From NCBI GenBank assembly GCA_945482995.1, contig CALYRM010000013.1, forward strand, positions 1 through 33,386: a stretch of DNA of 33,386 bases, given 5' to 3'. This stretch comes from an uncultured Clostridia bacterium (GTDB taxonomy: Bacteria > Bacillota > Clostridia > Christensenellales > CAG-1252). The notes under the pieces are model-generated. The model searched no databases and was not told the DNA's origin. It saw nothing but the letters and a program-made list of their open reading frames with translations. Made by a program: the position numbers and the translations under genes. Numbering within the stretch: the first letter of the stretch is position 1; every line of letters starts with the position of its first letter. Positions 183 through 23,040 of this stretch are shown here, piece by piece.

Positions 183-213
183 TGACGCAGAATAACAATA
201 TTAATTACGCATG

Positions 214-239
214 AAAAAAGTCCGCTCGGACTTTTTTTT
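214..239 (-). terminator. Rho-independent terminator of the yicC-spoVM operon
   Basis: A run of A, then GTCC, a GCTC loop, GGAC and a run of T form a symmetric hairpin. Read on the minus strand it ends in six U residues. It starts 12 bases after the stop codon of the small spoVM-like ORF, which supports that ORF as the last gene of the operon. The symmetry means it could also act on the plus strand, but I see no plus-strand gene reaching it. Confidence 0.85.
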
Positions 240-250
240 ACGAGCAGACT

Positions 251-331
251 TTATTCTTTACAAAACAATTTCTTAATACATCTAAGTACCTTTTTTATAA
301 TCTCGGGTGGATCAATGCAAATAAACTTCAA
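251..331 (-). CDS. spoVM: Stage V sporulation peptide SpoVM (26 aa, TTG start)
   Basis: This 26-codon ORF begins with TTG six bases after a strong AAAGGAGG site inside the end of thiN, and stops with TAA just before a terminator. As I recall it, B. subtilis SpoVM is also 26 residues and lies directly after thiN (yloS). The ungapped comparison matches at M1, K2, F3, I6, P9, R17, F23 and K25, with E26 for D26. Residues 10-25 can form an amphipathic helix: I11, I12, V15, L16, I19, L22 and F23 on one face, and K13, K14, R17, K20, K21 and K25 on the other. In the known family the peptide binds the convex forespore membrane and anchors the coat protein SpoIVA. Odd points are the TTG start, three cysteines (5, 18, 24) and D7-P8 where Bacillus has K-L. 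The call rests on length, position and these residues. Confidence 0.8.
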   Translation of the reverse strand: MKFICIDPPEIIKKVLRCIKKLFCKE

Positions 332-332
332 A

Positions 333-941
333 CTAAACCTCCTTTTGGAATACTCTGAAAATTAATGCGTCACCTCTATCTATCGTTATTGTTATGTTAT
401 CCCCTGTCGCAACATTGGATACGCATACCGTGTTAAACATATCGTATTCAACATTATTTATCTCATATTCCAAGCCTTCTGTACTCATTATATGCACTTT
501 CTCAGAATATGGTACTATTGATATAACTTCCCCTTTTACTGTGTTCAACTTGAATATGCTGTTTGCATAATAGGCGTCAAAGTCGTCGCCCTTTATCGTA
601 CATCTAACGCCCATTTTTGCGGCAATGGCAACAAGTCTTAGGTTGAACATAACGTGATCCAACCTACCGCCTGACGCACCGTAAACGTTTATTTTGCGAT
701 AACCCTTGTTGATAGCATATATTATCGCCAATTCGCCGTCGGTTTTATCCTTTCTTTTGTTGAATTTTATTACTTCAACGTCAGAGTCGATATTCTTAGC
801 GCTATCCAAGTCGCCTACTACCACTTGTGGTTTATAACCGTTCTTTTTCGCACGATTGTAGCCACCGTCCGCACAAATAATGTAATCTTCGGTGATTGCA
901 CGGGTAAAATCATAATTCAATACTACTGCACAGGTTTTCAT
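333..941 (-). CDS. thiN: Thiamine pyrophosphokinase
   Basis: Transfers pyrophosphate from ATP to thiamine to make the cofactor thiamine pyrophosphate in the cytoplasm. The 202-aa length fits the family. Visible motifs are ADGG (24-27), GDLDS (43-47), the acidic DKTDGE (65-70) and GGRLDH (91-96), in the N-terminal catalytic half. A small beta-rich C-terminal domain with TEGLEYEI (154-161) and a late SN (175-176) shapes the thiamine site. Its start overlaps the end of rpe by 4 bases, and its last codons contain the ribosome site of the spoVM ORF downstream. No TPP riboswitch-like sequence precedes it, so expression probably follows the operon. Confidence 0.95.
   Translation of the reverse strand: MKTCAVVLNYDFTRAITEDYIICADGGYNRAKKNGYKPQVVVGDLDSAKNIDSDVEVIKFNKRKDKTDGELAIIYAINKGYRKINVYGASGGRLDHVMFNLRLVAIAAKMGVRCTIKGDDFDAYYANSIFKLNTVKGEVISIVPYSEKVHIMSTEGLEYEINNVEYDMFNTVCVSNVATGDNITITIDRGDALIFRVFQKEV
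338..345 (-). promoter_or_regulatory. Ribosome binding site that sets the spoVM TTG start
   Basis: Reads AAAGGAGG on the minus strand, overlapping the last codons of thiN, with six bases between GGAGG and the TTG at 331-329. It is among the strongest ribosome sites in the window and is the main reason to treat the tiny downstream ORF as translated. Confidence 0.8.
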
Positions 942-1579
942 AGTCCTTTTAATCTCCTTATCGTCCGCTTTGGATTAGTTGAATTAAATACCGAACTTCC
1001 GCCAACCAATATGGTTACGCCGCTATCGGTTATTTCCTTTGCATTTTGTTCATTCACTCCCCCATCCAATTCAATAGTCATATCGGGGCGTAATTCTTTG
1101 ATTTTTTTAACCTTTTCCAATACCTCGGGAATAAATTTTTGTCCGCCAAAGCCCGGATAAACTCCCATAATTAACACCATATCGATTATGTCAAGATAGT
1201 CTAAAATAAGGTCAATAGGCTTATCGGGATTTAATACCAAGCCCACTTTTTTCCCTTTATTCTTAATCTTTTGTATAGTTGCTAAAACGTCCTTGCTTGC
1301 GTCGGGATGAAAAGTTACAATGTCCGCGCCGTCGTCGCAAAAGCGTTCAACGTATTTTTCGGGTTCAACTATCATTAGGTGAACGTCTAAGGGAATCTTT
1401 GCATAAGGCTTTATTGCCTTGCACATTGGCATTCCAAAGGTTATGTTATTGACGTATACTCCGTCCATAACATCAAAGTGGATATAGTCCGCTCCCCACT
1501 TTTGAGCCAATTTTACCGACTTTGCCATATTTGCAAAATCGCCCGACAAAATGCTCGGTGCAACCTTAATCTTCGTCAT
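938..1579 (-). CDS. rpe: Ribulose-phosphate 3-epimerase
   Basis: Interconverts ribulose 5-phosphate and xylulose 5-phosphate in the pentose phosphate pathway. It is a 213-aa TIM barrel with APSILS (7-12), the metal-ligand segment HFDVMDG (34-40), DVHLM (65-69), LDGGV (171-175) and a phosphate-binding VGGSSVF (192-198). The PGFGGQ loop (142-147) is preceded by GVY (139-141) where most family members have (S/T)VN. The ATG at 1579 has AGGAG about nine bases upstream and overlaps rsgA by 14 bases, so translation is probably coupled. rsgA-rpe-thiN is a standard Bacillota order. Confidence 0.96.
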   Translation of the reverse strand: MTKIKVAPSILSGDFANMAKSVKLAQKWGADYIHFDVMDGVYVNNITFGMPMCKAIKPYAKIPLDVHLMIVEPEKYVERFCDDGADIVTFHPDASKDVLATIQKIKNKGKKVGLVLNPDKPIDLILDYLDIIDMVLIMGVYPGFGGQKFIPEVLEKVKKIKELRPDMTIELDGGVNEQNAKEITDSGVTILVGGSSVFNSTNPKRTIRRLKGL

Positions 1580-2417
1580 AATTACGCACTCCTAATATAT
1601 TTAAGTACCTATAATATCTCTTTAAGTCGATTTTTCTCTTTTTTACAGCAGCCCTAATTGCGCACTCAGGCTCACGGACATGCTGACACATTCTATATTT
1701 ACACTCGCCAACTTTCATAAAGTCGGGATAGTATAAACATATCTCTTTTTTATCGGGTAGTCCTGCTTCCAACTTGCTGAATCCGCAGGTATCAATAAGT
1801 TCACACTTTGAATTGATGCGATGTATACTGACGTGTCTGGTCGTGTTTCTTCCACGCATTATTCTTGACAATTCGCCCGTTTCCTCGTTTTGTTCGGTTA
1901 TGACGTTTAATAGCGAAGTCTTGCCAACAGCGGATTGTCCGCAAAAACAAACTGTTCCTTGTAAACTTTCAACAAATTCCTTTATTCCGTCGCCGGTATT
2001 TGCAGATACCGAATATATCTTGATAAAGTCGCCGTAAACTCTTTCGACGTATTCCAAAACCGCCGTGGAAATATCAGTCTTATTGACACAAATAATGGGC
2101 TTTATATTATTATTATAACACGCAATTATCATTTTATCAAGTAGCACGTAATCGGGTTTCGGTTCGGATGCTAGTACCACAACCAAAACGTCGATATTGC
2201 TGACGGGTGGTCTTACCAATTCATTTTTTCGTGGATAAACCTTGGTTATCAACCAAGTTGGATCCTTGGTTAATTCAACGTAATCGCCTATCAAAATACA
2301 GTCGTCATCTCTTTTTAGTAGCCCTCTTGCAGGACAAACAATAACCCCCTCTTGGGTTTCAACAGAAAAGCTTCCGCCAACTCCTTTTATTACTCGTCCG
2401 TCAAGATTATTTGCCAA
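1566..2417 (-). CDS. rsgA: Ribosome small subunit-dependent GTPase A
   Basis: A circularly permuted GTPase that assists late 30S subunit maturation. An N-terminal OB-like domain (1-65) precedes motifs in permuted order: G4 NKTD (112-115), G5 SAN (138-140), G1 GQSAVGKTS (160-168), the TTR of G2 (192-194) and G3 DTCG (209-212). The C-terminal zinc site is C239, C244, H246 and C252. The usual G3 is DTPG, so P-to-C is unusual. The start is TTG with AAGGAG eight bases upstream, and the gene overlaps rlmN by 11 bases. In B. subtilis prpC and prkC lie between rlmN and rsgA; here they are absent. Confidence 0.96.
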   Translation of the reverse strand: MANNLDGRVIKGVGGSFSVETQEGVIVCPARGLLKRDDDCILIGDYVELTKDPTWLITKVYPRKNELVRPPVSNIDVLVVVLASEPKPDYVLLDKMIIACYNNNIKPIICVNKTDISTAVLEYVERVYGDFIKIYSVSANTGDGIKEFVESLQGTVCFCGQSAVGKTSLLNVITEQNEETGELSRIMRGRNTTRHVSIHRINSKCELIDTCGFSKLEAGLPDKKEICLYYPDFMKVGECKYRMCQHVREPECAIRAAVKKRKIDLKRYYRYLNILGVRNYDED

Positions 2418-3444
2418 TATATTTTCTCCTTAACTGTCCGCAAGCGCCACTTATATCCTCGCCCATTGTACGCCTTATCGTGCAAGATACCCCTAATTTT
2501 TCGAGATAACCTTGGAATTTCTTTACTTTTTCGGCGCTTGTACCTGTAAGCGACCTTTCCTTAACGTAGTTCAAGGCTATCAAATTGATATGAGCAGGGA
2601 AACCTTTCACCAACTCGGCAAGCCTTTTGGCGCAAGGCTCGGAATCGTTTACGCCTTGGATGAGCGAATATTCAAATACAATTCTTCTTCCCGTCGCATT
2701 AAAATATTTTTTTGCGGCTTCAATTACCATTTTTGTGTTAAACGCCTTATTGATTGGCATTATATCGTTCCTTATTTCGTCGGTTGGGGCGTGTAGTGAA
2801 AAGGTTAGTGTAACGAATAGTTTATCCTCAATAAGTCTATCTACTCCCGTCAATAATCCGCAAGTGGATAATGAGATATTTCGATAACTGATGTTCAAGC
2901 CTTTTTCATTATTTACAAGCCTTAAAAACTCAGCGACGTTATCGTAGTTATCAAAGGGTTCACCACTACCCATTAAAACAATATTTGTTATTTCTCTCTT
3001 TTTGAGAGTACCACCTAAACTCTTGTTTACGGTCAAAACCTCGGACAAAATCTCGCCTGACGTAAGATTTCGCACCAAGCCGTCCAAACCGGACGCACAA
3101 AAAGCGCAATTCATTCTACAACCGACTTGCGTGGATACGCAAATTGTGTTGCCATACTTATATTTCATTAATACCCCTTCGATTATGTTTCCGTCATTGA
3201 GTAAAAACAAATATTTTCGAGTTCCGTCGCTTGATACTAACGTCTTTAAAATCGATACGCCTTGAGCGGTATATTCATTAGAAAGTTTCTCAACAAAGGT
3301 TGAAGGCAAATTCGTCATTTCGGTGAGTTCCTTGCCCGAATTGATACCTTCGTAAAGTTGGGTTGCTCTAAACGGCTTTTCGCCAAGCGTAACGCACAAT
3401 TCTTTTAGTTTTTCTAAATTTAAGTCGGATAGAGCCTTTTTCAT
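2407..3444 (-). CDS. rlmN: 23S rRNA (A2503-C2) / tRNA (A37) methyltransferase RlmN
   Basis: A radical-SAM enzyme that methylates C2 of A2503 in 23S rRNA and A37 in some tRNAs. The 345-aa protein has an N-terminal helical RNA-binding segment, the cluster motif C109-x3-C113-x2-C116, the SAM segment MGSGEPFDNY (158-167; usually MGMGEP) and the methyl-carrier C335 in GACGQL. The ATG overlaps the rsmB stop as ATGA, indicating coupled translation. RlmN is separated from Cfr by operon context and by modifying C2 rather than C8; nothing here suggests resistance. Confidence 0.96.
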   Translation of the reverse strand: MKKALSDLNLEKLKELCVTLGEKPFRATQLYEGINSGKELTEMTNLPSTFVEKLSNEYTAQGVSILKTLVSSDGTRKYLFLLNDGNIIEGVLMKYKYGNTICVSTQVGCRMNCAFCASGLDGLVRNLTSGEILSEVLTVNKSLGGTLKKREITNIVLMGSGEPFDNYDNVAEFLRLVNNEKGLNISYRNISLSTCGLLTGVDRLIEDKLFVTLTFSLHAPTDEIRNDIMPINKAFNTKMVIEAAKKYFNATGRRIVFEYSLIQGVNDSEPCAKRLAELVKGFPAHINLIALNYVKERSLTGTSAEKVKKFQGYLEKLGVSCTIRRTMGEDISGACGQLRRKYIGK

Positions 3445-11578: not shown

Positions 11579-11836
11579 AGCGGATGAGATTTCTCGACTT
11601 CGTTACACAATGCTTGCGAAAGACCACGCCATACAAATCACGAAGTCCAAAACCCGCCGAAGTGCGGATTTCATCACGAAGTGATTTCATCCTGTAAGGA
11701 TTTCATCTGCCAATTAAGGCAGATTTCATTCTTTGTTCCAACAAAGAATGGATGAGATCCTCACGACTCCACTTCGTTCCGCTCAGGATGACATTATACA
11801 AAGGATGAGATTCCTCCACTTCGGTCGGGATGACAA
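11579..11836 (+). repeat. Composite R1/R2 repeat cluster between yicC and ligA
   Basis: This holds most of the 497-bp gap between yicC and ligA. In order it has a degenerate R1 unit (11579-11625), the hairpin chain R2 copy A (11630-11749), an R1 unit (11750-11797, ATCCT...AGGAT) and another (about 11800-11836, ATTCC...GGGAT). A short relic, GGTCGGAATGACATTG, follows. The remainder of the gap holds the yicC promoter on one side and the ligA terminator on the other. I see no gene. Confidence 0.85.
11630..11749 (+). repeat. Hairpin-chain element R2, copy A
   Basis: Five consecutive hairpins occur. M1 has CCGC/GCGG (11654-11667). M2 is ATCAC-GAA-GTGAT (11673-11685). M3 is ATCCT-GTA-AGGAT (11689-11701). 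M4 is ATCTGCC-AATTAA-GGCAGAT (11705-11724). M5 is ATTCTTTGTT-CC-AACAAAGAAT (11728-11749), a perfect 10-bp stem. M1 to M5 are separated by the same three bases, TTC, and M2 to M5 begin and end in AT. A 25-base lead containing ATCACGAAGTCC precedes M1 in copies A, B and C. Confidence 0.85.
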
Positions 11837-16355: not shown

Positions 16356-16550
16356 ACCAACAATGAAGACGCTTCGCTAATTGTGTTTGGATTTTTCGAC
16401 GTTGCCGGAAGAACTGACATTTATAATCGGATTGGCTGTTCGTATGCTTCGCAAATAGTCGGTGCTTATATAGAGATGTCTCGACTACGCTCGACATGAC
16501 GGAACAAGGATGAGATCCTCACGACTACGCTACGCAACGCTTTCAGGATG

Positions 16551-16730
16551 ACATTGTATGGGTCAGGATGACAACCACCATCCCATACAAATCACGAAGT
16601 CCAAAACCCGCGTGAAAGGCGGATTTCATCACGAAGTGATTTCATCCTGTAGGGATTTAATCTGCCAATCAAGGCAGATTTCATTCTTTGATGGACTAAC
16701 AAAGAGTGGATGAGGTCCCTCGACTGCGCT
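16551..16730 (+). repeat. 180-bp direct repeat, left copy (with the copy at 18920-19099)
   Basis: Aligns without gaps to 18920-19099, with about four differences by eye (within the M3-M4 linker, the M5 loop and the trailing R1 middle). It includes R2 copy B. The two copies have the same orientation, are 2,369 bp apart and enclose the cysteine desulfurase and thioredoxin genes. Confidence 0.85.
16584..16709 (+). repeat. Hairpin-chain element R2, copy B
   Basis: Same layout as copy A with TTC linkers. One linker has become TTA, between M3 and M4. M1 is CCGC...GCGG with a GTGAAAG loop, M2 is identical to copy A, and M3 is ATCC-TGTAG-GGAT, which keeps a shorter stem. M4 has AATCAA in its loop. 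M5 has the same outer stem with a longer loop (GATGGACTAA). Confidence 0.8.
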
Positions 16731-16887
16731 TTCAGAATGACATTTTATGAATGGCTGTTCGTGTGCTTTGCAAATAGTCGGTGCTTATATAGAGATGTCT
16801 CGACTACTAAGACATGACGGAACAAGGATGAGATCCCTCGACTGCGCTCGGGATGACATTATGGTGTTCAGGATGACGGGACATGTA

Positions 16888-18104: not shown

Positions 18105-18350
18105 GATTGCTCGTGTGCTTCACAAATAGTCGGTGCTTATATAGAGATCCCTCGACTACGCTTAAGAATGACGAAAGCTGATGAGATCCTTCGACTACGC
18201 TTAGAATGGCATAATATGGATGAGATCCTTACGACTACGCTACGCAACGCTTTCAGGATGACACTCCGTGTCGGGATGACATAATATGGATGAGATCCTT
18301 ACGACTCCACTGCGCATCGCTTGAGGATGACATTATTGATGCTCGAGATG
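18105..18350 (+). repeat. R1/R3 repeat cluster between thioredoxin and the cysteine desulfurase
   Basis: In the 378-bp gap 18019-18396 there is an R3 unit (18105-18172) ending in AAGAATGAC, a short R1 unit (about 18180-18210), and two longer R1 units with ATCCT and AGGAT (about 18222-18264 and 18287-18333). Relics GTGTCGGGATGACA and GCTCGAGATGACA lie between and after them. No gene or clear terminator is visible. Confidence 0.8.
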
Positions 18351-22317: not shown

Positions 22318-23040
22318 GTGTGACTCTTAGAATGACATAATATGGATGAGATCATTCGACGTTGCTCAGGATGACATTTTTAATAACGAAAGCGGATGAG
22401 ATCCTTCGACGTTGCTACGCAACGCTTGAGGATGACAATATGACATGAATGTCTATCCGTATGCTTCGCAAAGAGTCGGTGCTTGTAGTGAGGTCCCTCG
22501 ACTAGGCTCGGGATGACAGCGGTGCTGTCAATTCACCCTCGAACAACGCTTAAGAATGACAAACAAGGATGAGATCCTTACGACTCCACTTAGTTCCGCT
22601 CAGGATGACAATATCCATGTAATGTCATGTCGACCGTAGTGGAGACATCTAGAATCAATAAAGCGGATAGGTCCCTCAACGATGCTCGGGATGACACACA
22701 AGGATGAGATCCTTACGACTCCACTTCGTTCCGCTCAGGATGACATTTTTAATAACGAAAGCGGATTAGATCCTCACGACTTCGTTGCACTCCGCTCAGG
22801 ATGACATTTGGATTAGATCCTTACGACTTCGCTACGCTACGCTCAGGATGACAATTTATATGGTCAGGATGACATTATAAGGATTAGATCCTTACAACTT
22901 CGCTACGCAACGCTTGAGGATGACATTTGGATGAGATTCCTCGACGTTGCTCGGAATGACAAACAAGGATGAGATTCTTCGACTACGTTGCACTACGCTC
23001 AGAATGACATTATGGTGTCAGTATCACGTTATGCTGTTGG
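22318..23040 (+). repeat. Largest R1/R3 repeat cluster, between hslU and hisS
   Basis: The 792-bp gap 22257-23048 is almost entirely repeat. It has about ten or more R1 units, an R3 unit (22450-22518, GGTCCC...GGGAT), a TGTCAATTCACC-type copy (22526-22561) and one reverse-oriented unit (22621-22647, ATGTC...GACAT). The last units show ATTCC/GGAAT (22930-22960) and ATTCT/AGAAT (22965-23010). Spacing is irregular. No ORF with a ribosome site and no transposase remnant are seen. Confidence 0.85.

Follow-up and report, generated by a model that had tools for sequence, protein, structure and literature searches.

Does the 26-codon open reading frame (ORF) that closes an operon near the beginning of the window, by which we mean the whole 33,386-nucleotide stretch of DNA analyzed here, encode SpoVM, the peptide that in B. 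subtilis attaches to the outward-curved membrane of the forespore and serves as an anchor for SpoIVA? The ORF lies on the minus strand at positions 251..331 and encodes MKFICIDPPEIIKKVLRCIKKLFCKE; read from 331 to 251, its codons are TTG AAG TTT ATT TGC ATT GAT CCA CCC GAG ATT ATA AAA AAG GTA CTT AGA TGT ATT AAG AAA TTG TTT TGT AAA GAA TAA. An earlier reading of the locus made without database searches (the sequence-only reading) had described a Shine-Dalgarno sequence, a six-base gap, TTG, 26 codons, TAA, and a terminator directly after thiN, and this layout proved exact, both by sequence and by folding. The perfect Shine-Dalgarno sequence AAAGGAGG (338..345, minus strand) is contained within the last thiN codons, has an AGGAGG equivalent in 13 of 13 syntenic relatives, and is separated by six bases (337..332) from the TTG at 331..329 on the minus strand, with one base between the thiN stop codon (333-335) and this start. 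The intrinsic terminator (211..252, minus strand) begins in the stop codon of the ORF and consists of a 12-bp stem, a 12-nt loop, and a T-run with six T's after the stem; the hairpin folds at -16.6 kcal/mol versus a shuffle mean of -6.5 (z -4.15). A simple automatic scan reported no terminator after the ORF because it allows loops of at most 8 bases.

The operon, encoded entirely on the minus strand, has the order rlmN-rsgA-rpe-thiN-spoVM, and its genes overlap or nearly touch. The first visible gene (2407..3444) is an ORF for an rlmN-like rRNA methyltransferase of 345 aa, named after the RlmN (TIGR00048) at the same position in the relative L192. It is followed by rsgA (1566..2417), encoding a ribosome biogenesis GTPase of 283 aa (TIGR00157, 168 bits) and overlapping rpe; by rpe (938..1579), encoding a ribulose-phosphate 3-epimerase of 213 aa (TIGR01163, 257 bits) and overlapping thiN by four bases; and by thiN (333..941), encoding a thiamine diphosphokinase of 202 aa (TIGR01378, 153 bits, cut-off 76). 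B. subtilis spoVM is located at the end of an rsgA-rpe-thiN gene order, and of the expected rpe-thiN-spoVM neighborhood both rpe and thiN are present in the window. At most distant named thiN loci, no SpoVM-like ORF was recovered in the 900 bases that follow thiN. Other spoVM-bearing genomes have rpmB adjoining spoVM (PMC5607322); this gene is convergent and downstream of the peptide in most relatives of genus g2 and at many loci of the order, and its position in the window's genome is beyond the contig end. The contig itself starts inside a cluster of dispersed short repeats of the form AAGGATNAGATCCTCACGA...GAGGATGACA, which are found in the window at 1-200, around 4892, and at 11757-11828, 16506-16851, 18256-18325, and 22369-22965, and all 25 copies of GGATGACA in the window are on the plus strand.

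The window's genome (G000; 2.12 Mb in 163 contigs) was compared with 19 relatives from the same family. A peptide of 22-30 residues is encoded 0-17 bases after the thiN stop codon in all 14 family genomes with a syntenic thiN, the window included, so that the same ORF, which had been expected after thiN in close relatives, is present in 13 of the 13 others; all 14 thiN-coupled copies have a TTG start and a strong Shine-Dalgarno sequence. Four genomes from the same genus as the window (G014, G016, G017, and G018) are missing thiN from the rlmN-rsgA-rpe operon and retain the peptide, which is encoded from an ATG directly after rpe in G014, G017, and G018 and near a contig edge in G016. Two of the four have a distant thiamine pyrophosphokinase elsewhere (L015 and L016), and no thiN match was found in the other two. 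Since the peptide is kept where thiN is absent from the locus, it is independent of thiN. The decay of the frame among relatives that the sequence-only reading had named as counterevidence was not seen: change is conservative in the pooled pairwise comparison of the family peptides over codons 2-19 (pS 0.79 versus pN 0.29), with 1136, 538, and 1616 differences at codon positions 1, 2, and 3, respectively. This pattern indicates purifying selection on the frame in the family as a whole; the branch of the window by itself is too short for such a test.

The curated models do not recognize the peptide. A search against the Pfam SpoV family had been proposed as a check, and it was negative: the Pfam search gave no match in the window's genome or with the window peptide, and the NCBIfam scan of the peptide gave no match to SpoVM. 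These cut-offs are detection thresholds rather than biological properties, and the Pfam SpoV cut-off is failed by 294 of the 297 genomes of the order, most of which encode spoIVA. Membership instead rests on intermediate sequences. With A1, a profile built from the family peptides, similar ORFs are detected at E<=0.001 in 110 of the 297 order genomes, where Pfam SpoV passes in three. One peptide, G030:C70 (MRFYCIKLPRFVGAVIRFVLGK...), is matched by both Pfam SpoV and A1 and reaches the cut-off of NCBIfam SpoVM_broad, and a continuous series, including MRIICVKAPKFLSGVLRLF, MKIICIKPPRFLRGILRLIF, MKIICINPPKFIKAILRVF, and MKFICINPPECVKAFLRLF, leads from it to the window peptide, although the nearest relatives score only 14-16 bits against SpoVM_broad (cut-off 31). 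When an alignment of 47 peptides (A3) was compared with the 177,635 sequences of the PDB, the sole match at E<=10 was B. subtilis SpoVM (2mvh, E 0.0023), with residues 1-17 aligned on 1-17. A four-residue gap that separated the window peptide from the rest in the first alignment was discarded, as the core is gap-free with 47 sequences. With a profile that contains no family member (A4), the window ORF ranks first in its 2.1-Mb genome (E 0.0017; most relatives are found at 1e-5 to 1e-11), scoring 20 bits versus 25-42 bits for relatives of the same genus. Because it is the best genome match of this family-free profile, is located at the expected site, and has a frame kept in relatives, the ORF is more than a chance occurrence, and it is confirmed as a real gene at 331..251. 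Judged by the intermediates, its place in the SpoVM family is secure, and the peptide is a new, if strongly divergent, member of this known family.

At 26 aa, the window peptide is within the size of SpoVM (under about 30 aa), and its M1, K2, F3, I6, P9, R17, F23, and K25 coincide without gaps with B. subtilis SpoVM, as the sequence-only reading had stated; the reference sequence was confirmed as PDB 2mvh. The proposed amphipathic helix is likewise borne out, with a moment of 0.81 for residues 10-25, a value that 0.02% of shuffles reach. Only M1 and P9 are invariant in A3, and little is conserved after position 17. Of the SpoVM residues, Pro9 alone is conserved throughout and is required to recognize curved membranes, Ile6 is needed for SpoIVA binding, and loss of Lys2, Ile6, or Ile15 disables B. 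subtilis SpoVM (PMC5607322); the window peptide has Lys2 and Ile6 and replaces Ile15 with the similar Val15. The B. subtilis protein (PDB 2mvh; PF08183; NF011327) thus shares with the window peptide its 26 residues, Lys2, Ile6, Pro9, Arg17, and an amphipathic C-terminal helix, but the window peptide has Cys5 for Thr5, Asp7-Pro8 for Lys7-Leu8, and Lys13-Lys14 for Gly13-Gly14, its gene starts with TTG tight behind thiN, and it scores below all curated cut-offs.

The three cysteines and Asp7-Pro8 had been suggested to mark a diverged subfamily, and this idea survives for Cys5 only. Cys5, common to at least 90% of the order peptides in A3 and replaced by Val or Ala in other Clostridia, marks the window's order, whereas Cys18 and Cys24 are not conserved, Asp7 is found mainly in the window peptide and that of its nearest relative (G015), and Pro8-Pro9 is widespread in Clostridia. 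Pro-Pro was dropped as the sign of a new subfamily, since MKIYVIKPPKFLSSIIKKLF and similar peptides of other Clostridia pass SpoVM_broad. This clostridial SpoVM family (NF033436) shares with the window the gene neighborhood and, in some members from other Clostridia, Pro-Pro at 8-9, but these members have Val or Ala at position 5 and mostly Lys at position 7, whereas peptides of the window's order have Cys5 and mostly Asn, Lys, Arg, or Asp at position 7. Several substitutions in the window peptide, such as K14 and C18, are unseen in relatives.

Being cationic and amphipathic, the peptide could also be another kind of short peptide (phenol-soluble-modulin-like, antimicrobial, or toxin-like) whose likeness to SpoVM is one of composition only, and the only library model that it reaches is indeed PSM epsilon (E 0.071, 12.9 bits); that score is below the cut-off of 33 and the identity was rejected. 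A resemblance in composition is hard to reconcile with the invariant P9, the residue-by-residue match to SpoVM 1-17, the spoVM gene neighborhood, the bridging sequences, and the near restriction of the peptide to genomes bearing spoIVA, and we consider this explanation extremely improbable.

The host had been implied to be, or to descend from, a spore former, with a check of its genome for spoIVA, spo0A, and sigE/sigG, and all of these genes were found, as was sigK; by gene content the host is a predicted spore former. SpoIVA scores 665 bits (cut-off 460) and keeps a Gly seven residues from its C-terminus that, from its position, probably corresponds to Gly486, with which Ile6 of SpoVM pairs. 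The genome also encodes Spo0A, SigE (beside a SpoIIGA-like gene), SigG, and SigK, the sigma factors scoring below the NCBI equivalog cut-offs yet best to the SigE, SigG, and SigK families. Among the 297 order genomes, spoIVA is present in 108 of the 110 with the peptide (the exceptions are G009 and G237), a co-occurrence with a Fisher p of 2e-8 by a statistic that ignores relatedness among genomes.

The upstream regions of spoVM suggest that in many members of the order it is expressed later than in B. subtilis and C. difficile. The motif CATANNNT is found in 65 of 139 spoVM upstream regions in the order versus 18 in dinucleotide shuffles, mostly 20-40 bases before the start, and alignment of the regions on this motif brings out GTNAC as a -35 element. 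The combined sigma-K-type pattern [AC]AC-N16/17-CATANNNT occurs in 41 of the 139 regions versus 0.6 in shuffles, all motif counts given here being inflated by related genomes and the pattern having been refined on the same data. Outside the thiN-coupled group it is present at 40 of 89 loci in the order, it spans at least eight families, and the one occurrence among 34 class loci is itself from an order member. A first "sigma-E full" pattern with a 12-16-base spacing was not enriched at spoVM. Within the order, the AC-type -35 element is found upstream of 0 of 39 spoIVA genes versus 41 of 139 spoVM genes (Fisher 1.7e-5), and the ATA-type upstream of 23 of 39 spoIVA genes versus 3 of 139 spoVM genes (Fisher 1.4e-15); where CATANNNT is present, AC at spacing 17 accompanies it in 38 of 65 spoVM regions and ATA at spacing 16-17 in 18 of 28 spoIVA regions. 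SigE of the window's genome reads ISQSYIS and SigK ISRSYIS, and a Gln/Arg difference in sigma sets the -35 preference in B. subtilis (PMC3789822); we read the Q/R in these two segments as that residue.

In both B. subtilis (PMC517825) and C. difficile (PMC5607322), spoVM is under the control of sigma-E, and the simplest reading of the motifs is that it became a late sigma-K gene in the window's order; a putative sigma-K-type promoter at spoVM in many members of the order is a new observation. The fuller scenario, in which spoVM moved from sigma-E to sigma-K while spoIVA stayed with sigma-E, such that SpoVM would not be the first recruiter of SpoIVA, and in which a subset of the family lost the promoter and uses a TTG behind thiN, has in our estimate an even chance of being correct. 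If sigma-K control holds, spoVM transcripts are expected to begin some 7-10 bases past an upstream CATATAAT and to appear later than those of spoIVA. The window gene appears to be of a second, promoter-less and TTG-started type, because the sigma-K-type motif is found in 0 of the 14 thiN-coupled family copies and no convincing sigma-E or sigma-K site lies in the 320 bases before the window gene.

The absence of a convincing own promoter within 320 bases, along with the TTG start, the substitutions not seen in relatives (K14 and C18), and the A4 score of 20 bits versus 25-42, is what one might expect if the ORF were a non-functional relic or a chance ORF ending a housekeeping operon, with the function of spoVM lost or dispensable in this species. 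The frame, ribosome site, and terminator are all intact, however, the same architecture is intact in 13 relatives, and purifying selection acts across the family, and we therefore regard a relic as very unlikely.

We are highly confident in the explanation as a whole, namely that the ORF is a diverged spoVM, the last cistron of its operon, whose product would act on the forespore membrane to tether or stabilize the SpoIVA layer, with SpoVM probably acting late in many other members of the order. The gene would be read as the last cistron of rlmN-rsgA-rpe-thiN-spoVM by means of the strong ribosome site and the TTG, and the thiN-coupled copy in the window probably yields a low-level product made with the operon. 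The 26-residue peptide would insert into the outward-curved forespore membrane of the sporulating cell through the helix that follows the Pro9 kink and there tether or stabilize SpoIVA, the basement layer of the coat, which it probably contacts through Ile6. For the window peptide we infer targeting to the membrane, binding to SpoIVA, the amount and timing of its expression, and, as the sequence-only reading had held, a continuing role in anchoring coat assembly. In the many order members where spoVM has a sigma-K-type promoter of its own, SpoVM probably acts late and would consolidate the coat or cortex once SpoIVA is in place, instead of being the first to recruit it.

C. difficile SpoVM offers a comparison: it conserves the critical B. 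subtilis residues, has rpmB as a neighbor, and binds SpoIVA in vitro, but its gene follows one of 50 aa, is transcribed under sigma-E, and is largely dispensable (PMC5607322), whereas many members of the window's order have the sigma-K-type promoter. This dispensability means that the function may be weak even where homology is certain, and the mild C. difficile phenotype suggests, in the same direction, a coat-consolidating role if SpoVM is late. At the class loci L222-L267, the frame before many clostridial spoVM ORFs resembles the last part of a small membrane protein, possibly comparable to the 50-aa CD25622 that precedes C. difficile spoVM.

Galperin et al. (2012) left open the existence of "distant versions of SpoVM" in clostridia without a detectable one (PMC3533761), and such distant versions exist throughout the window's order, whose members are mostly gut bacteria not yet cultured, in 110 of 297 genomes by profile versus three by Pfam. 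A widespread spore-coat peptide is thus recorded as missing, a point of weight when metagenome-assembled genomes are used to predict spore formation. The added value is an order-wide set of overlooked SpoVM genes, which shows the positions that evolution has left unchanged (M1 and P9), and a predicted sigma-K switch, under which spoVM would be expressed late in these bacteria, a prediction open to test.

SpoVM-like peptides of other forms were also encountered. Family f28, with small genomes of about 0.8-1.3 Mb, encodes a SpoVM-like peptide with an N-terminal extension, e.g., MKKDEEKQFKIICIKAPKWMRPLLKPFVKK, at loci L248-L252 (genomes G069, G089, G124, G046, and G138) and also at L253 and L255; in five genomes of this family the gene for the peptide follows spoIVA on the same strand at a distance of about 0.1-0.9 kb. 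In the class family f48 (L225, L226, L232, and L233), a SpoVM-like ORF reads MQIVVIRPPKxIRGILKLMF, and a match to spoIVA lies on the other strand in the same region of a few kb.
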